From: Synechococcus sp. WH 7805
GTDB lineage: Bacteria > Cyanobacteriota > Cyanobacteriia > PCC-6307 > Cyanobiaceae
Assembly: GCF_000153285.1 (NCBI RefSeq)
Contig: NZ_CH724168.1
Span: forward strand, 2,333,455-2,397,454
Direction: 5' to 3'
DNA length: 64,000 nucleotides
Shown: positions 27,533 to 62,675 of the stretch, one piece after another
Layout: the number at the start of each line of letters is the position of its first letter
How positions within the stretch are numbered: the stretch's first letter is position 1
Notes under the pieces: generated by a model
What the model saw: the letters and a program-made list of their open reading frames with translations, nothing else
What the model was told of the DNA's origin: nothing
Database searches by the model: none
Made by a program: the position numbers and the translations under genes

Positions 27533-28261
27533 CTAGGTCCAGCGGGGCGGTCTGGCGGGGACCTGCACCAGTCCCTCACGGAAGGCGGTCACCACCGCCG
27601 CGGTGCGGTCCTTGGCAGGCAGCTTGCGCAGCAGGCTGCTCACGTGGCTTTTCACGGTCTCGATGGACACCAGCAGGTCTTCGGCGATCTCCAGATTGGT
27701 CATGCCACGGCATAGCCCGCGCAGCACGTCTTCTTCGCGCATTGTTAGGTCCTGCAGGGGCAGCTGCTGGCCGCCGCTGCTGCTGAGCCGGCTGTGGTGG
27801 AGCACACCGCTGATTACAGGATCGAGATATTGACCATCGCTATCGATGGCGGTGAGGGCGGTGGCCACCGCTCCAGTGCCAGCGCTCTGAACGGCGCAGA
27901 TGCCATGGCATCCGGCCTCGATCGCGTCCAGGATCGTGCGGGCGATTGGCCTGCGCAGCAGGATCAGGGCCTTGAGCTCGGGCTGAACAGCAAGGGCGCG
28001 CCGCACCAAGCTGATGCCGCTGCCGCTTTCCAGCAGGTCAGTGCACAGCAGCAGGCTGGCTGCGTGGCTCTGAATGTTGCCGAGGCAGTCGTCTTCGCTG
28101 GTGCAGGCGGCCACCAAAGGCCCCTGACCTTCGAACCAGATCGTCCAGCTGGCGAGCAGCACAGGGTCGGCGGTGGCGATGGCGCTGCGGCTGCGCCGCA
28201 GCAGGCTGTGGCCCTGACGGGATTGCTGCTGCAGAGAGGGGATCCGGGAGCTGAGATCCAT
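27533..28261 (-). CDS. LuxR-family regulator with atypical receiver domain
   Basis: A 242-residue regulator. The C-terminal LuxR helix-turn-helix is clear (LTMREEDVLRGLCRGMTNLE, IAEDLLVSIETVKSHVSSLL, RKLPAKDRTAAVV). The N-terminal region has receiver-like secondary structure (SAIATADPVLLASW, LLLCTDLLESGSGISLV, LKALILLRR) but no standard phospho-acceptor pocket, so it may not be phosphorylated. The start at MDLSSRIPSLQQQ is preferred; 19 more residues are possible upstream. A shorter paralog lies at 45712-46395. It diverges from the DUF1825 gene. Confidence 0.8.
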   Translation of the reverse strand: MDLSSRIPSLQQQSRQGHSLLRRSRSAIATADPVLLASWTIWFEGQGPLVAACTSEDDCLGNIQSHAASLLLCTDLLESGSGISLVRRALAVQPELKALILLRRPIARTILDAIEAGCHGICAVQSAGTGAVATALTAIDSDGQYLDPVISGVLHHSRLSSSGGQQLPLQDLTMREEDVLRGLCRGMTNLEIAEDLLVSIETVKSHVSSLLRKLPAKDRTAAVVTAFREGLVQVPARPPRWT

Positions 28262-45242: not shown

Positions 45243-45253
45243 GATCCCCCAGA

Positions 45254-45376
45254 TGGGGGAGGCAGACGGCTGAAATCGGGCAAATCAATGGCTTCGTTGG
45301 GGGAGTTGGTCCGCAGCAGAAATGGCGATGCTGAAGAGGTCCAGGAGGGATGACCTCCACAACACACTTTTACTTA
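45254..45376 (+). promoter_or_regulatory. shared 5' leader, copy A
   Basis: Two TGGGGGAG boxes start at 45254 and 45298 (44 bases apart) with CTGAAATCGGGCAAA between them, followed by GCGATGCTG and a GGAGG-GATGA-CCTCC hairpin (45344-45358). In the same place GAGGTC (about 45335) could pair with GACCTC instead, giving an alternative fold. The same elements occur upstream of genes at 46532, 54709, 57198 and 60099. Shared transcriptional control plus an mRNA leader is inference. Confidence 0.75.
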
Positions 45377-45553
45377 ATGACCAACATCAACAACAGCGCG
45401 GTCACAACATCTGCCCTGATGCAGGCTGCCTCTTTGGTTGTTTTGGCTGTTGCTCCTCTTGCCGTTGGGGTCGGAATCGCCGCAATCAATGTCCCTGATG
45501 CTGAAGCGCGAGTCACCTGTCGTCCAATCGGGACTGCTTCCTACTGCCGCTGA
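45377..45553 (+). CDS. small secreted peptide, VTCRxIGxxxYCR family
   Basis: A 58-residue protein: MTNINNSAVTTSALMQAASL, a hydrophobic signal-like helix (VVLAVAPLAVGVGIAAINV), then DAEARVTCRPIGTASYCR. It is a close paralog of the gene at 46532. ATG at 45377 rather than 45350 is chosen because the paralog conserves MTNIN while the bases before it are part of the shared leader. A C-terminal Cys pair could form a disulfide after export. Flanked by leader A and 3' element A. Confidence 0.75.
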   Translation: MTNINNSAVTTSALMQAASLVVLAVAPLAVGVGIAAINVPDAEARVTCRPIGTASYCR

Positions 45554-45608
45554 TGCAGAGCCAGTCTGTCAGGAGGCCTGATGCCATTGTCGCGGGAGAA
45601 CTCGGCAG

Positions 45609-45708
45609 GCTGAAAGCCATACAAAACCCGCAAGGGAAAAGCAGGGGGCGTGGTTGTCGCTATCGATCTCCCGACACAACATTGTCTCCCCGTCTTAAAG
45701 GCGGGCTT
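45609..45708 (+). repeat. shared 3' element with terminator, copy A
   Basis: CTGAAAGCCATACAAAACCC, CCC-GCAA-GGG hairpin, GCAGGGGGCG, then TGTCG...CGACA stem around CTATCGATCTCC, and finally CCCGTC-TTAAA-GGCGGG with a T-run (about 45689-45710). Follows the secreted peptide gene directly. Also present at 46760, 56173, 57498 and 62561. Likely an mRNA 3' structure or small RNA with terminator. Confidence 0.8.
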
Positions 45709-45711
45709 TTC

Positions 45712-46395
45712 TTATATGCCAGCTTTGATGGCTTTAATGACTGCCTGTGTTCTGTCTTTAACACCCATCTTTCCGATGATGGAACTGACGTGAGTTTTCA
45801 CTGTCTCTGCACTCACAAAGAGGGTGTCAGCAATTTCCTTATTGGTCATCCCGCAGGAGAGCACTTTCAGTACTTCTATCTCTCGCTCAGACAGTTCAGG
45901 CAAGACCTCTATGCGCTCGTAGCCCGCAGCAGTCTGAACGTCTTGTGGATAGTAGTTTCCGCCTTCAGCAATGGCTGAAAGTGAACGGATGAAGTCACCA
46001 TCGATCCCTTTCCCCAAGGAGCTGATGAAGATCACGCCTTCAGCAAATGCATCAAGGGCTTCCCGCACGACTGCCTGTGTTTCCCGATGGAGGAACACCA
46101 GGGTTCTGGTTTCTGGGCTGAACTCCTTGACGTGTCTGGCAAGGCTGAGGCCATAGCCCTGCCCTAGGTTTTCCGTCACGAACAGAAGGTCAGGGGATCT
46201 CTTCCGACATGCATCCGCTGCCTCTTCCTGTGTGGTGTACGCCCCTATCAAGGAGTCACTGATGACAGGCACCAAGCTGAAGGAGGCAAGAGTCAGGAGG
46301 TCGCCCATGCAAGCCACCGCGGTCTTGCCGGCGAGGAGAGACTTGCCCTGATCCAAGGCCGATCGGATCTGTTCAGAGCGAAGCGGAAACTCCAT
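45712..46395 (-). CDS. LuxR-family regulator, receiver lacks Asp
   Basis: A 227-residue regulator with LuxR helix-turn-helix at the C-terminus (LPELSEREIEVLKVLSCGMT, IADTLFVSAETVKTHVSSII). The N-terminal receiver-like domain has LLFVTENLGQGYGLSLARHV where the phospho-Asp would be replaced by Glu. It is a distant paralog of the regulator at 27533. Located between two leader-bearing cassettes on the opposite strand; whether it controls them is not shown. Confidence 0.85.
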   Translation of the reverse strand: MEFPLRSEQIRSALDQGKSLLAGKTAVACMGDLLTLASFSLVPVISDSLIGAYTTQEEAADACRKRSPDLLFVTENLGQGYGLSLARHVKEFSPETRTLVFLHRETQAVVREALDAFAEGVIFISSLGKGIDGDFIRSLSAIAEGGNYYPQDVQTAAGYERIEVLPELSEREIEVLKVLSCGMTNKEIADTLFVSAETVKTHVSSIIGKMGVKDRTQAVIKAIKAGI

Positions 46396-46460
46396 ACCAG
46401 GTCTTGTGGCTCCCCCATTGTGACCAGTGAAATGACATCAGGACACCACTTTTGGGTGAT

Positions 46461-46531
46461 TTGGGAGAAGGGGTAAAGCAGCGATGGTGAAGAGGTCCAG
46501 GAGGGCGACCTCCTCAACCCACTTCAAACAA
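46461..46531 (+). promoter_or_regulatory. shared 5' leader, copy B (shortened)
   Basis: Contains TTGGGAGAAGGGG (a weak version of the boxes), GCGATGGTGAAGAGGTCCAG and the hairpin GGAGG-GCGA-CCTCC (46500-46513) with a GNRA tetraloop, 19 bases before the ATG. The stretch from GCGATG to the ATG is very close to copy A. Confidence 0.65.
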
Positions 46532-46711
46532 ATGACCAACATCAACACCACCGCCAACACCAAGAAAACCGGCATCAAGCAAGCCGCTTCTCTCGTCGCA
46601 ATGGCAGTAGGTCCTTTGGCAATCGTGATGGGAGTTGTGGCAATGAACGTTCCTGCTGCTGATGCGAGAGTCACCTGCCGTCAAATTGGCAATGCTGTTT
46701 ACTGCCGCTGA
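46532..46711 (+). CDS. small secreted peptide, VTCRxIGxxxYCR family
   Basis: A 59-residue paralog of 45377-45553: MTNINTTANTKKTGIKQAAS, a hydrophobic helix (LVAMAVGPLAIVMGVVAMNV), then ADARVTCRQIGNAVYCR. The conserved ends and variable helix show selection on the C-terminal motif. A longer in-frame start at 46484 exists only because the leader happens to be open here; copy A is out of frame, so MTNIN is the start. Confidence 0.75.
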   Translation: MTNINTTANTKKTGIKQAASLVAMAVGPLAIVMGVVAMNVPAADARVTCRQIGNAVYCR

Positions 46712-46759
46712 AACAGCTTCAAGCCACTGTCGGGATGCCTGATGCCTGATGCCTGAGGG

Positions 46760-46866
46760 CTGAGAGCCATACAAAACCCGCAAGGGAAAAGCAGGGGGTG
46801 CTGTGTTGTCGCTATCGATCTCCCGACAAAACATTCAGCCCTGTAAGCAATGGTGGGGTTTTTATT
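46760..46866 (+). repeat. shared 3' element with terminator, copy B
   Basis: CTGAGAGCCATACAAAACCC, CCC-GCAA-GGG, AGCAGGGGGTG, TTGTCGCTATCGATCTCCCG with TGTCG/CGACA, and a weaker terminator ending GGTGGGGTTTTT. Preceded by a GATGCCTGAT tandem. Directly follows the second secreted peptide gene. Confidence 0.78.
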
Positions 46867-46902
46867 GCAGCGGGTCATGCTTTTGGCAGTTGCCCCAAAC
46901 CA

Positions 46903-48352: not shown

Positions 48353-48500
48353 GACAGGCTGGTCGGTTGGCACTAGGGGTAAGCCTCTAACCCCAGTTAT
48401 TGCAATGTTTCTGATTCGAAGTGATCAAGATCACAGGCAGCTTTGACACAGGTCATCAAGTGGACCAGTCATTCCGGAGATGGTGTGTCCATCGAAGGGA
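48353..48500 (+). repeat. second leader-type repeat, copy b
   Basis: Same ordered blocks as 47083-47222: GACAGGCTGGTCGGTTGG, AAGCCTCTAACCCCAG, TTGCAATGTTTCTG, AAGTGATCAAGATCA, GGCAGCTTTGACACAGGTC, GGAGATGGTGTG. It ends 39 bases before the RTX gene and so is the likely promoter/leader of that gene. Confidence 0.6.
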
Positions 48501-48538
48501 GCAATCCCAACGACACAAACCACTCACGCTGCATCACC

Positions 48539-49327
48539 ATGGCATACGAACACACGCTGACCGAAGCAAAATTTGTCAGCTTTTTTCAGCAATTATTTGG
48601 CGCAGAGAAAGGTGTCTATGACGCTGACTATTTTCGTCAAATCAATGAAAAAGACAAGCCCTACCAAAAAGATACCCTCGTCATTGATGAAAAGCAAGAT
48701 ATCAATGGAAGCATCTCCTGGGACATGCAATCAGGTGAATTTAATCAAACCCAGAGGTTTCGCGGTAATCAACATGTTGACGAAATGAAGCTGATTAATT
48801 TCGAGAATCTAGATGGAAGTACTGCAGACAGAATCGACTTCAATATTTTCGGAACCAATGATGACAACATCATCACCACCTCAGATGGCGATGATCAAAT
48901 CAATGCAAGAGGCGGCCATAACATCATTCGGACCGGTGGCGGTGAAGACATCATCACAGGCGGTGTCGGAGTTGACGTGGTCACCGGTGGCGATGGAAGA
49001 GATACTTTCATCACCCAAGCAGGGAGCGGCCTAATGTTCATCGAAGACTTCACGCAAGGTGAAGATGTTCTGAGAATGGTTGAAGGAGTGGCAGATGGTG
49101 TTGATCCGATCATCAAAAACTATCGAGAGGCCTGGGGAGATATCCGCGATCACTTGATGTTTTCGGCAGGACTTGATCCCTGGCAATCGGAAGCCATTTA
49201 CTTTGATCTTATTGACGACTTTAATGCAGCCTCTGTGATCTACAAGGACGGTGATCTGGTTGCTGTGATTGATGGAGTCAGCGCAGATCAGTTAATGATC
49301 AGTGCTGACATGAACGCAATCATCTGA
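48539..49327 (+). CDS. RTX-type calcium-binding protein
   Basis: A 262-residue protein. The middle (about residues 108-165) holds RTX-like nonapeptides NIITTSDGDDQINARGG, RTGGGEDIITGG and TGGDGRDTFIT, which bind calcium in beta-rolls; the rest is not recognised. There is no signal peptide, as expected for type I secretion, but no transporter is in the window. ATG at 48539 is preferred over an earlier ATG at 48443 because the extension is the leader repeat. Confidence 0.7.
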   Translation: MAYEHTLTEAKFVSFFQQLFGAEKGVYDADYFRQINEKDKPYQKDTLVIDEKQDINGSISWDMQSGEFNQTQRFRGNQHVDEMKLINFENLDGSTADRIDFNIFGTNDDNIITTSDGDDQINARGGHNIIRTGGGEDIITGGVGVDVVTGGDGRDTFITQAGSGLMFIEDFTQGEDVLRMVEGVADGVDPIIKNYREAWGDIRDHLMFSAGLDPWQSEAIYFDLIDDFNAASVIYKDGDLVAVIDGVSADQLMISADMNAII

Positions 49328-52294: not shown

Positions 52295-54103
52295 TTGATT
52301 GAAGAGAAGAGTCTAGATATGTTAAGTCCAAGCAGCTTTACTTTTATCGACTCACAGGCTTTTTGGCTAAGTGGCACTCAAAGTCTTGTCATCTCCGATA
52401 GTGTCACTTCCATTGGTAGTAGTGCGTTTTTAGACGATCTATTGACAAGCGTTGTCATTGGCAATGGCGTCACTTCTATTGGCATCGATGCATTTAGAAA
52501 CAATCAACTCACTAGCGTTGTCATCCCCGATAGCGTTATTTCCATTGGTGGCAATGCATTTTCAGACAATCTATTGACTAACGTTGTCATTGGCAATGGC
52601 GTCACTTCTATTGGCATCGATGCATTTAGAAATAATCAACTCACTAGCGTTGTCATCCCCGATAGCGTTACTTCCATTGGTGGCAATGCATTTTCAGACA
52701 ATCTATTGACTAACGTTGTCATTGGCAATGGCGTCACTTCTATTGGCATCGATGCATTTAGAAATAATCAACTCACTAGCGTTGTCATCCCCGATAGCGT
52801 TACTTCCATTGGTGGCAATGCATTTTCAGACAATCTATTGACTAACGTTGTCATTGGCAATGGCGTCACTTCTATTGACTTCGATGCATTTAGAAATAAT
52901 CAACTCACTAGCGTTGTTATCCCCGATAGCGTTGCTTCCATTGCTGGTAATGCATTTGCAGATAATCTATTGACAAGTGTTGTCATTGGCAATGGCGTCA
53001 CTTCTATTGGCTTCGATGCATTTAGAAATAATCAACTCACTAGCGTTGTTATCCCCGATAGCGTTGCTTCCATTGGTGGCAATGCATTTGCAGGTAATCT
53101 ATTGACAAGCGTTGTCATTGGCAATGGCGTCACTTCTATTGGCTTCGATGCATTTAGAAATAATCAACTCACTAGCGTTGTCATCCCCGATAGCGTTGCT
53201 TCCATTGCTGGCAATGCATTTTCAGACAATCTATTGACAAGCGCTGTCATTGGCAATGGCGTCACTTCTATTGGCTTGGATGCATTTAGAAATAATCAAC
53301 TGTCTAGCCTTATCATCCCCGATAGCGTTACTCGAATTGGTGCTAGAGCATTTGCAAATAATCAGCTAACCAGAGTTGTCATCCCCGATAGCGTCACTAT
53401 GGTTGCTGGTGATGCATTTGATCCCAGCGTAGAATTGATTTTTGGCGATGGCTTGATAGGTGATAATTTTGACAATGCTCTAATTGGTGGAGCTGCTAAT
53501 GACTTTGTTTTCGGGAAGCTCGGAGATGACTTTATTGATGGTGGAGAAGGTAACGATACTGCTCAATTTACGGAGGCGAAGAATCGAGTTGACCTCCGCA
53601 ATGCAGCGCTTCAGGTCACTGGTGATGGTGTTGATCAGTTGATTTCTATTGAAAATGTAAATGGGGGGGCTGGTAATGACAAAATCAAGGGTAATAGGTT
53701 TGCCAATATTCTTAATGGAGAAGATGGTAATGATAAATTAACTGGTCTTGGAGGTGGTGATGTTTTGTCTGGAGAGGGAGGTAATGACAAGTTGTTTGGT
53801 GGCAGCGGGGACGACAAATTATTTGGTGGAAATGGAAAAGATAAATTAAAAGGCGATAAAGGTATTGATCAACTTTGGGGTGGAGAAGGTAGGGACATCT
53901 TTGAAGTCACCACAGGCGATGGTTACGACATCATCGAAGACTTCACTGATAGAAAGGATCGTATCTTCTTAGGGGTAATTTCTTCAGATGTTGATCTTAT
54001 TGTGCTCGGACGGGATATTCTCATTGTTCAGCAATTAGACGCACTGGCTCTTGTCAAAAATGGCGCTGGCAAACTTCAGTTGGAAGGTGAGTTTCTCATC
54101 TGA
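52295..54103 (+). CDS. LRR_5 (BspA-like) repeat protein with RTX C-terminus
   Basis: A 602-residue protein. About 16 LRR_5 units of 22 residues (consensus LTSVVIPDSVTSIGGNAFSD) run from about residue 28 to 380, then RTX nonapeptides (GGAGNDKIKGN, GEGGNDKLFGGSGDDKLFGG) from about 390 to 535, and a non-repetitive end. This suits a type-I-secreted calcium-binding adhesin. TTG at 52295 gives MIEEKS, like MIEERV of the gene at 60099; ATG at 52319 is the alternative. AT-rich and foreign-looking. Confidence 0.8.
   Translation: MIEEKSLDMLSPSSFTFIDSQAFWLSGTQSLVISDSVTSIGSSAFLDDLLTSVVIGNGVTSIGIDAFRNNQLTSVVIPDSVISIGGNAFSDNLLTNVVIGNGVTSIGIDAFRNNQLTSVVIPDSVTSIGGNAFSDNLLTNVVIGNGVTSIGIDAFRNNQLTSVVIPDSVTSIGGNAFSDNLLTNVVIGNGVTSIDFDAFRNNQLTSVVIPDSVASIAGNAFADNLLTSVVIGNGVTSIGFDAFRNNQLTSVVIPDSVASIGGNAFAGNLLTSVVIGNGVTSIGFDAFRNNQLTSVVIPDSVASIAGNAFSDNLLTSAVIGNGVTSIGLDAFRNNQLSSLIIPDSVTRIGARAFANNQLTRVVIPDSVTMVAGDAFDPSVELIFGDGLIGDNFDNALIGGAANDFVFGKLGDDFIDGGEGNDTAQFTEAKNRVDLRNAALQVTGDGVDQLISIENVNGGAGNDKIKGNRFANILNGEDGNDKLTGLGGGDVLSGEGGNDKLFGGSGDDKLFGGNGKDKLKGDKGIDQLWGGEGRDIFEVTTGDGYDIIEDFTDRKDRIFLGVISSDVDLIVLGRDILIVQQLDALALVKNGAGKLQLEGEFLI
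52442..53365 (+). repeat. seven tandem 132-bp repeats
   Basis: Seven in-frame copies of 132 bases (two LRR_5 units each), starting at 52442, 52574, 52706, 52838, 52970, 53102 and 53234. Copies 2 and 3 are identical over the whole unit and others differ by few bases, so expansion is recent. Not a CRISPR: no spacers. Confidence 0.95.
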
Positions 54104-54605: not shown

Positions 54606-54700
54606 TGGGGAAAGGGGCAATTGGCTGAAATCGGGTGGAGAAATCCCCCAGTTGGGGGAAGTGCATTCAGGCGAGAACAGCGAAGGTGAATACAGATGAA
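54606..54700 (+). promoter_or_regulatory. shared 5' leader, copy C
   Basis: TGGGGAAA at 54606 and TGGGGGAAG at 54653 (47 apart) around CTGAAATCGGG, then GAGAACAGCGAAGGTGAATAC. Lacks the GGAGG/CCTCC hairpin. Upstream of the small exported protein at 54709. Confidence 0.68.
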
Positions 54701-54708
54701 ATAGCACT

Positions 54709-54924
54709 ATGAGAGCGATGTCCCTGATGGCTGCCTTCGTTGGAATCGTGGTGATTACGGGTTGCATTGGTGGAACCCTAGCCGTGAGTGAACCGACACC
54801 GCAGATTGCCAACGAACGTGGCTCGCTTGATGCAGCAAACGACAAGCTGCGGAAAGCCTGTTTGACTGGTTCTTTTTTTGGAAGAGGGCTATTTGAACAG
54901 GGTGCTTGCCATCAATACCGCTAA
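54709..54924 (+). CDS. small exported (lipoprotein-like) protein
   Basis: A 71-residue protein: signal MSLMAAFVGIVVITGCIGG with a possible lipobox (ITGC), then an acidic mature part with KLRKACLTGSF and ending EQGACHQYR. The two C-terminal Cys and basic-aromatic end recall the VTCR...YCR peptides. Preceded by leader C; the shared 3' element is not found after it, but a long inverted repeat is at 55002. Confidence 0.65.
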   Translation: MRAMSLMAAFVGIVVITGCIGGTLAVSEPTPQIANERGSLDAANDKLRKACLTGSFFGRGLFEQGACHQYR

Positions 54925-55001
54925 GTGATCACTTTGGTTGACTTCAAGAGAACGAATTTGGGCCGTTTGGGGGATGCGCCTTCCCCACCCTTTGAGTGAC
55001 G

Positions 55002-55059
55002 GGGGAATTGGGTAATCCGGCGGCCCCCAGTGAAATGTCCGCAGGATTACCCATTCCCC
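55002..55059. repeat. 17-bp inverted repeat
   Basis: GGGGAATTGGGTAATCC (55002-55018) and GGATTACCCATTCCCC (55044-55059) pair over 16 bases with one extra T in the left arm, around a 25-base loop. It could terminate transcripts from either side (no T-run) or be a remnant of a small mobile repeat. Confidence 0.7.
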
Positions 55060-55160
55060 GTGTGCCGTTGGAGTATCAGGTTTGAACTGCACGATCTTCT
55101 GCTGGTCAGCAATGGCCAACTATGGTCTCCACTCGGATTAAGTCGGGTTGGATACCAAAA

Positions 55161-55331
55161 TCAGCCAGCTACAGCGGAAATGCTGTACGGCGCTTCAGGC
55201 AAGCTTGTGGGCATTGGATCGAGCTTGCCTGAAGCCAATGCTTTGGCGCGGACGTACATCTGGCTTGATGTGGCACCAGCTGCTTCCATTGCCTTTGCGA
55301 CGATGTCCCAGTTGCGAACTTCGGTAGACAT
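55161..55331 (-). CDS. 56-residue protein, unknown
   Basis: MSTEVRNWDIVAKAMEAAGA, then SSQMYVRAKALASGKLDPMP and a Pro/Ser-rich end. The helical first half resembles short DNA-binding or leader-like proteins but no family is named. A 14-base perfect inverted repeat (GCTTCAGGCAAGCT, 55192-55205 and 55222-55235) lies inside its 3' half. Confidence 0.55.
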   Translation of the reverse strand: MSTEVRNWDIVAKAMEAAGATSSQMYVRAKALASGKLDPMPTSLPEAPYSISAVAG

Positions 55332-55513
55332 TTGAGGCTGATTGAAGGAGTAGAAACTATCGCCAGCCAACTGACCTGGCCGTGATGGTGAAAACCGCCA
55401 AGGGACCGAACACACGAAACGTGAAAGTTCACCGCCTACGACCTGGCTTCTCCAGATGTTCGAATGGATTTGGTCGGTAACGGATCACTTTTCACCCAGT
55501 AGGTCGTTCCACG

Positions 55514-55678
55514 TCACTGATCTATCGCAACAGAGCGGCTTGAGAGGGCGCGGCTCTTTCGACTCAGGGCTGCACCCGCGTCGAGCATTTCGCTCGGCTT
55601 CAGGTTCGCATCCGCGATGGCCAGGGCCTGGGCTTCTGCTGCATCCATAACCCGGCGTTGCCGAACAGACCTGTCCAT
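55514..55678 (-). CDS. 54-residue helical protein, unknown
   Basis: MDRSVRQRRVMDAAEAQALA, then IADANLKPSEMLDAGAALSR. AGGGAGA precedes the ATG at 55678 at usable spacing, which is why this start is chosen over 55708. Charged and helical; function unknown. Confidence 0.5.
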   Translation of the reverse strand: MDRSVRQRRVMDAAEAQALAIADANLKPSEMLDAGAALSRKSRALSSRSVAIDQ

Positions 55679-55842
55679 GATTTCTCCCTTGAATGTTTTG
55701 CGGGCCACCCATCAGGACTCGCAGGAGCGATGCGGCCAGCTACTCCCCCTAACGCCCCCTCTTAGTCTGCCGAGGGCTCCAGTGGTCAAGTTATTGGGAC
55801 ATCTCCCGAAGGAACAGCACAGGTGAGCGCGAGAATGCAGAG

Positions 55843-56019
55843 ATGGATGTCGAACAGCTGGAACAGCTAGCCGCTGTGATCGTAACGGCAGGGCTAGTAG
55901 CAGGAAATTTCCTATTGTTCACTCCCTGGCGGGATGGTCAGGATCCGAGGCAACGACAACCTGAACGCTTAATACCTCAGAACGAATCGATTCATCGGCC
56001 TGGTACGCCAGGTATCTAG
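55843..56019 (+). CDS. 58-residue single-TM protein
   Basis: MDVEQLEQLAAVIVTAGLVA then GNFLLFTPWRDG, a membrane helix of about 20 residues followed by a polar Gln/Arg/Pro-rich tail. No upstream leader of the shared type was found, but the shared 3' element follows at 56173. Function unknown. Confidence 0.5.
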   Translation: MDVEQLEQLAAVIVTAGLVAGNFLLFTPWRDGQDPRQRQPERLIPQNESIHRPGTPGI

Positions 56020-56066
56020 TTCACGTCGATGGGCAGACCCCTCGGATCGGATGGGGGAATTGAGCG

Positions 56067-56180
56067 TCAACCCCGCCGGTGCAGCTCTGATCGGAATTGG
56101 TCAGCACCTCGAGCTCCCTCCATAGCGAGCATCTGCTGCAGGCCCAAGCAACTCCACCGATCACCTTTTTGGGGAAGCCT
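56067..56180 (-). pseudogene. C-terminal relic of the 59208 gene family
   Basis: The reverse frame reads GDRWSCLGLQQMLAMEGARG and DQFRSELHRRG, matching GDQRSCLTLQQM...RFRSELHRK of 59208-59402. The N-terminal half is missing and the frame runs into 3' element D, so this is a fragment. Confidence 0.5.
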
Positions 56181-56309
56181 GATGCCATGAAAGCGGGGAT
56201 GAGAGCAATACAAGACCCGAAAGGGGAAAGCAGGGGGCGTTGTGGTGTCGCTATCGATCTCCCGACAAAACCTCACGGACACCACCCCGTCATCAATGGC
56301 GGGGTTTTT
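56173..56309 (+). repeat. shared 3' element with terminator, copy D
   Basis: GAAGCCTGATGCCATGAAAG, GAGAGCAATACAAGACCC, CCC-GAAA-GGG hairpin, GCAGGGGGCG, TGTCG...CGACA, and terminator CCCCGTC-ATCAAT-GGCGGGG (56285-56304) with TTTTTG. The longer 5' part is shared with copy E. An ACGGACACCA insertion replaces ATT before the terminator. Confidence 0.8.
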
Positions 56310-57123: not shown

Positions 57124-57230
57124 TGGGGGAGGCAGACGGCTGAAATCGGGCAAATAAATTCCTTAGTTGGGGGAGGTGCTTTTTAGTGAGAACGGCGATG
57201 GTGAATACATCGGAGGGACGACCTCCACTA
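57124..57230 (+). promoter_or_regulatory. shared 5' leader, copy E
   Basis: TGGGGGAG at 57124 and 57168 (44 apart), CTGAAATCGGGCAAA between, GAGAACGGCGATGGTGAATA, then GGAGG-GACGA-CCTCC (57212-57226). The most complete copy. It begins 6 bases after relic copy 2. Confidence 0.75.
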
Positions 57231-57485
57231 CTCCAAACTCAAAGGAAACTCTTCAACGCAATCGCTGCTGCTGCAATCGCTGGTACTGCACTTATTGCCA
57301 GCACTACTCCTGCATCTGCGCAGTATTACGGAAATCGCACTTATACATTCCAACAGCGTACTAATGGATTCCGAGTCCGTGACAACTATGGCAACAGCAG
57401 TATTTTTACCAATCGTGGAGGCGGTGGTTACAACTTTAGAAATTCCAATGGTGGTTATGGCTCTATTCGCTTCCGCAACTATTGA
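57198..57485 (+). CDS. glycine/asparagine-rich secreted protein
   Basis: About 95 residues with a signal peptide (LFNAIAAAAIAGTALIASTT, PASAQ) and a mature chain of Gly, Asn, Tyr, Arg and Phe (NRGGGGYNFRNSNGGYGSIR). The only ATG is at 57198 inside the leader, so here the GGAGG/CCTCC bases are translated; the start is uncertain. Low complexity suggests a surface or extracellular protein. 3' element E follows. Confidence 0.65.
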   Translation: MVNTSEGRPPLLQTQRKLFNAIAAAAIAGTALIASTTPASAQYYGNRTYTFQQRTNGFRVRDNYGNSSIFTNRGGGGYNFRNSNGGYGSIRFRNY

Positions 57486-57497
57486 TCAACTTCGTCG

Positions 57498-57625
57498 GGA
57501 AGCCTGAAGCCATGAAAGCGGGGCTGAGAGCAATACAAGACCCGAAAGGGGAAAGCAGGGGGCGTGGGTTGTCGCTATCGATCTCCCGAAAAGCATTCAC
57601 CCCGTCAGTAATGGCGGGGTTTTTG
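57498..57625 (+). repeat. shared 3' element with terminator, copy E
   Basis: GGAAGCCTGAAGCCATGAAA, GAGAGCAATACAAGACCC, CCC-GAAA-GGG, GCAGGGGGCG, TTGTCGCTATCGATCTCCCG (second arm CGAAA, so the TGTCG stem is broken here), terminator CCCCGTC-AGTAAT-GGCGGGG (57600-57619) plus TTTTTG. Confidence 0.82.
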
Positions 57626-59981: not shown

Positions 59982-60098
59982 TGGGGGAAAGAGACCCCTG
60001 AAATCGGGCAAAACAATCGCTCGGATGGGGGAAGTGCTTTCCGACGAGAACGGCGATGGTGTGTTCACGGGGCGAGAGCCTCACAATCCATTAGACAA
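59982..60098 (+). promoter_or_regulatory. shared 5' leader, copy F
   Basis: TGGGGGAAA at 59982 and TGGGGGAAG at 60026 (44 apart), CCTGAAATCGGGCAAA between, GAGAACGGCGATGGTGTGTT, then a degenerate GGGGCGAGAGCCTC in place of the GGAGG/CCTCC hairpin. It directly precedes the 804-residue protein. Confidence 0.75.
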
Positions 60099-62513
60099 AT
60101 GATTGAAGAAAGAGTTTTTATCGAAACGGCTTCAAGCAAAGACATTTACGCGAACACATTTAACGCAATCGGCAAGTATGGAGCACTAGTATCATCTTTT
60201 GATCTCAATCAAGGATTGCTTACTTGGGCTGAGGGTACATCATATGGTTATTCATCATCACACGAATTCAATGATTCACAAGTGTTTTCGTTTAATGTAG
60301 AGACAGGAGAAACTAGACACCTCTCAAAAGGCATTCAAAACATAGATTACTTTAGTTACTCGGTAGAAGAGTTCAAAAATCTCGATTTTGATATAATCCA
60401 TTCATGGAAAAACGCCTATAGACCCGTAACAAACGGAGAAGATGTATTCACCCAATTATATTATACATGGATCAGTCAACCCAATGATGCCAATCCAGAT
60501 TTAATTGGAGAATCAGTTCTTAAGTATGACGCGAGCGAATCAAAATATATCGGCGCTTCATCCGTTTACATTCCTAAAGACTTTACGTCTGATGGCGAGT
60601 ATGACCAAATCGGAGAACACCAGTATGCTGGAAATAATTTGGCAACGATTGTTTCAACAAATGGAATTTCTGACAATACAGTAGTCATTAATGAGCTTGA
60701 TTCAGGCGAGCAGCATATATTTACTGTTCCAGGCGCTGGAGATATCTTCGATAATAATCTTGACCACCAAAACAGATTGCATGTTTCGAGAAATGCCGTT
60801 GCCTGGCAGGACGACTGGGGCAGGGCGTTTTCGTTCAATACAGCAACCAATAAACTAACAACAATCGAAGGAACTGAAGAATACGGGTACGACGGTGGCA
60901 TTGATATTTTTCTTGCTAATGACAAATGGCTCATTACCGATGATATCTCTGGTCTAGGAGAGCGATATTCCTCTCACAATAATGTCGCAGTGGCAAATCT
61001 AGAGAGTGGACAGCAATTCGTTCTGTCCGCCAAAGACATCTTTCCAGGATACGATGACAGCCTGTACGAAGATTGGTATCTTGACCTTCCCATGTCTGGA
61101 ATTCAACTAGTCGGGAACAAGTTATTTGGCAGCGCACATGACGTTATAGACGATGTAATTGATATTGAAACCGGAGAGAAGCTCAGCATTGACAAGTGGG
61201 GAAGGAATAATGATTCATACTCATTCTTTGAGCATGATCTTGTAAGCGGTCAAACGACGATTATTGTTCCAGATAAATATCTGCTACCTTCTGGTACGAA
61301 GGCTGGCTGGGAGCCTGTAGCCACTGCTGATTTTGCATCTAACGATAAAAATGTAATCGCTTGGCAGGCTCATGCTGGCGATATGGATGGTTTTCAAATG
61401 CCAGAAAAAGAGTTCCTGCCTGGCTATGAAGCAAACGCAATTCTTGCTTACAATCTAGAAACAGGTGAGCTAAAAAGAATCACCGATGAAGTAATCCAAG
61501 ACAACCCATACACATCAATCGATGAGATAGTTATTGACGAATCTGGGAAAAATGTTGCAAATGGTTCGTTTATGGATTCAACGCTGACCGTTGCGGCAGA
61601 CATCTGGAATCCTGAATACGGAGAAGAGCTGGGTTATGCAAGGTATGTGATTAAGGCTCCCAATGCTGAAGCCAATGACGATAATCAATTCGCTGAATAT
61701 AGCTCGGCTTTAGTCAACCATCAATGGCAAGAAATTCAGCTTTCAGGAAACTATGTGAATCCAGTTGTCATTGCATCAGACCCAACACGTCGGGGTGGAG
61801 ATCCTGCTGTTGTGAGGCTGCGGAACATTGATTCTAACTCCTTCCAAATCAGGCTTCAAGAACCTAACTACAAAGATGGCTACCACACAAATGAAACGAT
61901 CTCTTACATGGTTGTTGAGGAAGGAACCTGGGAGCTATCAGATGGGACCAAGCTAGAAGCGGGTTCCTTGAGCACAAATAAGCTATCCACTAAAGGTCGT
62001 GAAACCGTCTCTTTCGACGATGCATTCGGATCTGATGACTCCCTCGCAGTGTTGTCTCAGACTCAAACCTTTTACGGAAGTGATTGGGTGACCACTCGGA
62101 CTGACAACATCACAGGCGATTCATTCCAAGTGATGATGCAGGAGGAAGAGAGGCTTAATGGCGGAGGTCATGTCACTGAATCAATTGGCTGGCTTGCAAT
62201 TGAGCAGGGTAGTGCAACCGATGGAGACACCATCATTGAAGGTGGCGTAACAGCTGACAGGTTTACCCATAAATCTGCGACGCACTCCTTTGATACAAGC
62301 TTTTCCTCCACGCCAACCTTGCTGACCAAACTTGATTCCTTTGATGGTAGAGATACAGCTAACTCAAGAATCCGATCAGTGAACGCCAATGGCTTTACAG
62401 CCTTGATCGCCGAAGAACAGTCTCGCGATAGAGAGATTTATCACACTACAGAATCCATTTCATATCTTGCGTTAGGTGCGGACTCTGGATTCTTAACAGG
62501 TGTAGCAATCTAA
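60099..62513 (+). CDS. large protein with beta-propeller-like repeats and H-type-lectin-like C-terminus
   Basis: An 804-residue AT-rich gene. The first 520 residues hold repeated strands such as FSFNVETGETRHLSKG, VVINELDSGEQHIFTV, VAVANLESGQQFVLS and LAYNLETGELKRIT, like TolB/WD40-type propellers. The last 250 residues contain three related modules with the pattern W(Q/V)xxxL, PVVIASDPTRRGGDPAVVRL, FQIRLQEP and ETISYMVVEEGTW, as in H-type lectin-like domains. No signal peptide; non-classical or type I export is inferred. Leader F and 3' element F flank it. Confidence 0.65.
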   Translation: MIEERVFIETASSKDIYANTFNAIGKYGALVSSFDLNQGLLTWAEGTSYGYSSSHEFNDSQVFSFNVETGETRHLSKGIQNIDYFSYSVEEFKNLDFDIIHSWKNAYRPVTNGEDVFTQLYYTWISQPNDANPDLIGESVLKYDASESKYIGASSVYIPKDFTSDGEYDQIGEHQYAGNNLATIVSTNGISDNTVVINELDSGEQHIFTVPGAGDIFDNNLDHQNRLHVSRNAVAWQDDWGRAFSFNTATNKLTTIEGTEEYGYDGGIDIFLANDKWLITDDISGLGERYSSHNNVAVANLESGQQFVLSAKDIFPGYDDSLYEDWYLDLPMSGIQLVGNKLFGSAHDVIDDVIDIETGEKLSIDKWGRNNDSYSFFEHDLVSGQTTIIVPDKYLLPSGTKAGWEPVATADFASNDKNVIAWQAHAGDMDGFQMPEKEFLPGYEANAILAYNLETGELKRITDEVIQDNPYTSIDEIVIDESGKNVANGSFMDSTLTVAADIWNPEYGEELGYARYVIKAPNAEANDDNQFAEYSSALVNHQWQEIQLSGNYVNPVVIASDPTRRGGDPAVVRLRNIDSNSFQIRLQEPNYKDGYHTNETISYMVVEEGTWELSDGTKLEAGSLSTNKLSTKGRETVSFDDAFGSDDSLAVLSQTQTFYGSDWVTTRTDNITGDSFQVMMQEEERLNGGGHVTESIGWLAIEQGSATDGDTIIEGGVTADRFTHKSATHSFDTSFSSTPTLLTKLDSFDGRDTANSRIRSVNANGFTALIAEEQSRDREIYHTTESISYLALGADSGFLTGVAI

Positions 62514-62560
62514 AGATCAGAAGCTAATCACACCTTCATTCTCAGATTATGTAAGGAGCT

Positions 62561-62675
62561 TGATGCCTAGAACGAGGGGCTGAAAGCCATACAAAACCCG
62601 CAAGGGAAAAGCAGGGGGCGTAGGTGTCGCTATCGATCTCCCGGCAAAACATTCACCCCGCCAGCAACGGCGGGG
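62561..62675 (+). repeat. shared 3' element with terminator, copy F
   Basis: CTGAAAGCCATACAAAACCC, CCC-GCAA-GGG, GCAGGGGGCG, TGTCG...CGGCA (one G-U changed pair that keeps the stem), and ATTCACCCCGCC-AGCAAC-GGCGGGGTGAAT, a 12-bp perfect stem (62651-62680) where T of other copies is C. There is no T-run afterwards. Confidence 0.8.

Follow-up and report, generated by a model that had tools for sequence, protein, structure and literature searches.

What are the two small paralogous genes that flank a LuxR-type regulator in the genome of Synechococcus sp. WH 7805, and how far does the unit they share extend? Both lie on the forward strand of the 64-kb stretch of DNA analysed here (64,000 nucleotides; the window). 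The first (P0001, MTNINNSAVTTSALMQAASLVVLAVAPLAVGVGIAAINVPDAEARVTCRPIGTASYCR; 45377-45553) encodes a Cys peptide precursor of 58 residues and the second (P0002, MTNINTTANTKKTGIKQAASLVAMAVGPLAIVMGVVAMNVPAADARVTCRQIGNAVYCR; 46532-46711) one of 59 residues. Both ORFs are present as described in a preliminary account of the locus, and their translations are 62% identical. The differences between the genes are distributed 11/14/26 over the three codon positions, that is mostly in the third, as in real coding sequence. A genome-wide search with one peptide returns the other copy as its sole match (E 2.7e-16; 2.63-Mb genome). Neither peptide matches a Pfam or NCBIfam model, and assignment to a bacteriocin or another known peptide family was rejected on this result.

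The claim that their membrane helices differ is overstated, as QAASLV..AV.PLA...G..A.NVP.A.A is common to both and is the part best kept in relatives. Conversely, the C-terminal Cys motif (the 14-residue end RVTCRxIGxxxYCR), described as invariant, is so in these two copies but not in relatives (L003, L004, L005, L006 and L009), which keep the leader and hydrophobic stretch and have the C terminus as their variable part. Peptide matches are found in 7 of the 31 genomes of the genus, plus a few others; the weakest two in the genus list (L007 and L008) look unrelated, the true relatives being L003/L013, L004, L005, L006 and L009, together with a pseudogene that carries an in-frame TAA (L010).

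The pair has a signal-peptide-like N terminus, an A-x-A site and two Cys residues in a tail of around 14 residues, making export of a small disulfide peptide plausible for both genes. To this extent the earlier proposal of a processed, extracellular, disulfide-containing peptide is partly supported, with a reservation about the 58-residue copy: the 59-residue copy passes a crude signal-peptide heuristic (basic n-region, hydrophobic core, A-x-A), but its partner has no K or R ahead of the hydrophobic stretch and thus no basic n-region, so that its signal peptide is atypical. Each precursor would be exported through Sec and cut after A-x-A, releasing a RVTCRxIGxxxYCR peptide of about 14 residues in which one disulfide closes a ring (predicted oxidised products RVTCRQIGNAVYCR and RVTCRPIGTASYCR).

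Repeat analysis reveals that the duplication reaches past both ORFs. The two copies (A and B) are 90% identical from the stop codon to the end of a 3' element, compared with 72% in the coding sequence and 75% in a 5' leader. A 91-base stretch downstream of the second gene has 14 matches in this genome and occurs in 27 of the 31 genomes of the genus, and the genes ahead of these matches differ each time, among them small signal-peptide proteins (MKLFNAIAAAAVIG...), RTX proteins, a metallopeptidase-like protein and a double-glycine-leader-type peptide. The two peptide genes appear to share their untranslated regions with a large set of unrelated cargo genes whose products are mostly exported. 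The main feature of the locus, missed by the preliminary description, is this shared 5' leader and structured 3' element around both genes, and its interest lies in the fact that this pair of putative RNA elements also frames numerous other cargo genes, often for exported proteins. Ordinary gene duplication, in which the wider repeats would be just shared terminators and promoters, accounts for the two window genes, which are clearly duplicates. As an explanation of the whole it is most improbable, given that the flanks occur with unrelated genes, fold with covariation (below) and are more conserved on the 3' side than the coding part, and that the 3' element occurs in 10 genera.

The 3' element is around 103 nt long and starts 13 nt (A) or 16 nt (B) after the stop codon. 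Its closing stem, UGUCGGGA/UCUCCCGACA, surrounds inner hairpins, and three single strands are conserved (AUACAARA, GAAAGCAGG and AUC[GC]AUCU). The fold was found by inspection and then expressed as a covariance model, R1, built from 25 copies (103 positions, 22 pairs); RNAalifold yields almost no consensus fold when given a plain MAFFT alignment that includes the flanks. Searches with R1 (cmsearch) identify 14 copies in this genome, five of them in the window and all five on the forward strand: cassette A at 45567-45679 (97.4 bits), B at 46728-46831 (102.2 bits), C at 56168-56270 (95.0 bits), D at 57493-57594 (105.3 bits) and E at 62550-62649 (85.9 bits). Among 400 sampled genomes of the family, 64 contain R1 matches, representing 10 of 59 genera; the copies counted per genome are at least that many, with up to 10 candidates scored in each. 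Only family members match among the 291 genomes of the class that were sampled. At gathering score, the sole Rfam match in the 64-kb window is a tRNA, with none for the 3' element, and our searches of the open-access literature, where absence is weak evidence, returned no description of either element.

Across 138 aligned 3' elements, 88.2% of cells pair and 20 of the 22 pairs show double-sided changes. The alignment contains 174 double-change cells, compared with 40.6±5.5 in shuffles (0/500 reaching it) and 17-54 in slid controls, a figure that is not a probability, since the structure guided the alignment and the copies are related and come from one bacterial family. Pairs in P4 switch among GU, CG, GC and AU; in P1, UA alternates with CG and AU with GC; and the loop of the P3 hairpin is of GNAA or UUCG type. 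With compensatory changes that exceed both shuffled and slid controls, the element has the character of a conserved structured RNA and probably constitutes a new family.

The genomic position of the element is strict. An ORF of at least 60 residues ends 0-60 nt upstream of 95 of 137 copies, 77 of them at 5-20 nt, whereas the same is true of 313 of 2,760 random positions (11%). Within the next 80 nt, 74 of the 137 copies (54%) have an intrinsic terminator, compared with 15 of 685 random positions (2%); terminator-like hairpins lie behind element A at 45689-45705 and behind element B at 46837-46860, both on the forward strand. By position, then, this is a 3'-UTR element. A 5' riboswitch of the following gene was considered and rejected, because the element sits 5-20 nt behind the preceding gene and the next gene after copy A is on the other strand.

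Flanks that are multi-copy, near-identical and directly behind single ORFs whose identity is exchanged could instead be DNA recombination or mobility sequences (attC-like or MITE/REP-like) with a fold that acts as single-stranded DNA and plays no part in the mRNA. The comparison with integron cassettes is instructive here, because these likewise comprise one ORF and a folded 3' element, with cargo exchanged between constant flanks. Yet the genome encodes no integron integrase (TIGR02249, E<=1e-5), the attC core sites RYYYAAC/GTTRRRY are present at both ends of 0 of 138 copies, and the cassettes described here have their own terminators and an extra conserved 5' element; we therefore rejected identity with integron cassettes. 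The constant strand, the 5-20 nt distance from the stop codon and the frequent terminator also speak against DNA mobility sequences, as does the absence of the elements from the phage records and viral contigs searched, on which result a phage or virus origin was rejected too. Finally, G-U pairs outnumber A-C pairs on the sense strand. Because this excess is modest (198 versus 94, or 116 versus 94 without the commonest G-U pair), sense RNA is favoured, not proved, over single-stranded DNA. Taken with the separate 5' leader, these observations make a DNA-level function quite unlikely, and we favour an element that works as RNA.

The second constant part of the frame is a conserved 5' leader of around 70 nt with small hairpins, which lies ahead of the cassette genes and for which we built a second model, R2 (14 pairs). 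R2 finds five leaders in the window, one ahead of each of the five 3' elements and all on the forward strand (cmsearch): A at 45289-45359 (E 1e-9), B at 46444-46514 (E 4.6e-8), C at 54644-54700 (E 1.9e-6), D at 57159-57227 (E 5.8e-16) and E at 60017-60083 (E 5.8e-7). Of the 83 leaders in the loci retrieved for comparison, 75 have a 3' element behind them on the same strand, typically 200-900 nt on; these loci were chosen by their 3' element, and the unbiased test of the leader is a whole-genome search, where 8 of 8 leaders with E <1e-4 have a same-strand 3' element after them within 2.5 kb. Conversely, R2 detects no leader for 64 of 138 3' elements. Covariation is weaker in the leader than in the 3' element. 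Among 81 distinct matches 89% of pairs form, and there are 81 double-change cells compared with 37.4±4.0 in shuffles; the score, too, exceeds that of the controls, but no more of the pairs change than in shuffles, and one pair only changes on both sides in the seed. RTX-type cargo carries a variant leader (CAGGTCATCAACTGG...GGAGATGGTGTGTGCATCGGCGGGGGAGACCCC).

The leader contains an ATG that might be thought to begin a translated N-terminal extension of the cargo. We rejected this, and take the leader to be noncoding, because an open frame in phase with the cargo starts at its ATG in only 18 of 60 genes, which is about the chance level, and because the ATG of the cargo is usually 43-50 nt further downstream (the start codon typically lies about 45 nt after a GATGG motif). 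Base pairing between leader and trailer was likewise rejected as a mechanism, the cognate combinations giving -37.6 kcal/mol and the shuffled ones -37.7±0.4 kcal/mol.

That a terminator follows 54% of the 3' elements would also suit a different RNA reading, in which the element is the body of trans-acting, 3'-UTR-derived sRNAs of the Yfr1/Yfr10 kind and the cargo genes are mere hosts. The Yfr1, Yfr10 and Yfr2 sRNAs (Yfr1 is RF01116) are likewise conserved structured RNAs of marine picocyanobacteria, and a conserved motif is common to Yfr1 and Yfr10 (PMC6778093). One subgroup of cassettes has CCUCACACC, which resembles this motif, in the spacer between 3' element and terminator (L070 4021-4089 and L062 2090-2123), giving weak Yfr1 matches of 23.4 and 20.8 bits against a cut-off of 38. 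The Yfr1-like stretch is nevertheless absent from the window copies, and no Rfam sRNA matches at gathering score. The Yfr sRNAs differ from the 3' element in fold and sequence, and a fixed place behind variable, often exported cargo, paired with a leader, would not be expected of stand-alone sRNAs. We consider the sRNA reading unlikely and retain that of an element acting in cis on the message that carries it.

What the frames enclose is diverse. Cargo length ranges from 39 residues (in L167) to 804 (in the window), and 82 cargo proteins form 32 clusters at full length, one of which has 41 members joined by a shared leader or signal sequence, but 54 once trimming of the first ~42 residues has left the mature part. 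By the crude signal-peptide heuristic, signal-peptide-like N termini are found in 34 of 71 cargo ORFs of at least 100 residues (48%) compared with 118 of 449 other ORFs (26%; p 4e-4), and in 12 of 24 cargo ORFs of 60-99 residues (50%) compared with 41 of 411 (10%; p 3e-6). About half of the cargo fails this heuristic, and some looks cytosolic, for example a 161-residue ORF in L048. RTX repeats are present in 5 of 71 cargo proteins and in 7 of 449 other ORFs. The Cys-containing end of the two peptides varies in their relatives, and a related C-terminal motif, C..(x)[ILV]GN...C, recurs in other framed genes: 15 of 131 ORFs close to a 3' element have it, compared with 92 of 7,049 control ORFs. 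The 39-residue MKLFTARSALIIGSTFVITPDQGKATTWCQTIGNSISCS of L167 is an example that has the same untranslated regions.

The three further cassettes of the window illustrate this range. Translating the frames of cassette C (54644-56270) gives no intact ORF of note between leader and 3' element, so that this is apparently a dead cassette. The cargo of cassette D is a 95-residue, signal-peptide-like frame (...RKLFNAIAAAAIAGTALIASTTPASA; 57198-57485, forward strand) that is open only from the ATG within the leader, the usual start ATG reading AGG; having lost the usual ATG, this cassette may use the leader ATG instead. Cassette E encodes an 804-residue protein (60099-62513, forward strand) with a C-terminal H-type lectin domain (PF09458, E 3.3e-5).

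The regulator between cassettes A and B allows the same place to be compared between genomes. It was correctly described as a LuxR gene on the opposite strand between both peptide genes: a LuxR/NarL-type protein encoded at 45712-46395 on the reverse strand, with a GerE domain above cut-off (72.7 bits, E 1.9e-20) and a degenerate receiver domain below it (22.9 bits, cut-off 30.2). Orthologues that are 88-91% identical also lie between two cassettes in L048, L055 and L059, and this position is thus conserved between genomes; more distant relatives (44-57%) are found near cassettes in L144, L072 and L064. A second, distant LuxR-type regulator is encoded in the window at 27569-28261 and is 32% identical to the first.

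In a nucleotide alignment of the window with L048, one block of homology (45559-46528, 83%) takes in 3' element A, the LuxR gene and leader B; a second (46734-46891, 85%) covers 3' element B, and leader A is matched too (45245-45333). The coding sequences between these blocks are unrelated, being the 58- and 59-residue peptides here and proteins of 161 and 90 residues there. L055 and L059 show the same pattern of homologous untranslated regions and replaced coding sequences, the cargo in L055 consisting of a 656-residue protein (signal-free N terminus, repeat-rich C terminus) and a 111-residue protein. Furthermore, L055 (3389-3812) and L059 (1712-2120) have one mature domain in common (GTCWAW.PSSSRTVQGEYC...), preceded by different signal peptides. 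Of all the observations, the LuxR locus argues most strongly for a constant frame with changing cargo, as if cells kept one RNA frame and changed the secreted cargo inside it; part of the cargo differences could be explained by fast divergence in place, with no swapping.

We regard it as almost certain that RNA-framed expression cassettes exist in marine picocyanobacteria, their architecture, covariation, position, cargo variety and replacement at the LuxR locus being visible in the genomes compared. That the peptide genes are best explained in full as members of this cassette family is a view we hold with reasonable, if lesser, confidence. Each cassette would be one transcription unit made up of the leader, one interchangeable ORF, the 3' element and often a terminator. 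A role for the elements at the RNA level in cis is likely. They would act via a common factor, whether an RNA-binding protein, an sRNA or a ligand, that sets the stability or translation of the cassette mRNAs as a group, forming an RNA regulon of the variable exoproteome. Because AUACAARA, GAAAGCAGG and AUC[GC]AUCU are conserved inside a closed junction, we propose a specific partner; these strands suggest a function beyond protection from exonucleases. As different cassettes and strains have near-identical frames, new cargo could be swapped in by homologous recombination, for and against which we judge the chances to be about even. More tentatively, and with less than even probability, the RNA pair might serve both as an address or control tag for exported proteins and as docking sequences for cargo exchange, an arrangement that has no described counterpart.

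A sequence tag that recurs across genera would permit a coherent subset of the exported proteome to be listed from genomes alone, with the leader, the 3' element and the LuxR regulator as handles for studying its control. Framed cassettes would also offer a concrete route for rapid turnover of the exported fraction in the ocean's main phototrophs, and a structured RNA family with more than 100 copies in abundant marine bacteria and without an Rfam entry is a target for searches for ligands, protein partners and sRNAs.

Constant parts joined to variable ones are familiar from this group of organisms. Prochlorosins are lanthipeptides of marine picocyanobacteria that combine a constant leader with a hypervariable core, as do other conserved-leader, variable-core peptides. 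The framed cassettes differ in that their constancy resides in the untranslated regions, and partly in the signal peptide, and in that their cargo, from 39 to >800 residues, does not form one peptide class. In marine Synechococcus, exported proteins have been described as the part of the proteome that is least conserved and least characterised, and in Synechococcus and Prochlorococcus together as unusually lineage-specific and uncharacterised (PMC4949707), which fits the picture of framed cassettes. The text of that study consulted here describes no shared RNA frame, and the elements reported here would provide a sequence tag for a subset of this variable exoproteome.

Some minor observations concern individual copies. 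Within the 3' element, the 25-nt core AUACAARACCCGAAAGGG.AA resembles part of sRNA-Xcc1 (RF02221), the best sub-threshold Rfam match (24-25 bits), in L062 (2022-2046), L070 (3987-4011) and the window (45600-45682). sRNA-Xcc1 is an integron-cassette sRNA of Xanthomonas, found upstream of symE in integron cassettes (PMC12444791); its hairpin matches the 25-nt uaAUACAAuACCCGaAAGGGGAAua with 22-25 bits (cut-off 53), but the rest of its fold does not match the 3' element, and there is no integron here. In two of the small (1.7-Mb) genomes with few copies, the 3' element lies behind relatives of one non-signal-peptide protein (MDFK.HQLS.SNL..) that is encoded in the genome of the window too (loci L158, L161 and L044 7012-7106). 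Finally, genes for surface-type proteins cluster in the window at 52295-54103, 48443-49327 and 60099-62513, the types being a leucine-rich-repeat protein that is BspA-like and also has RTX repeats, a further RTX protein and the H-type lectin-domain protein.
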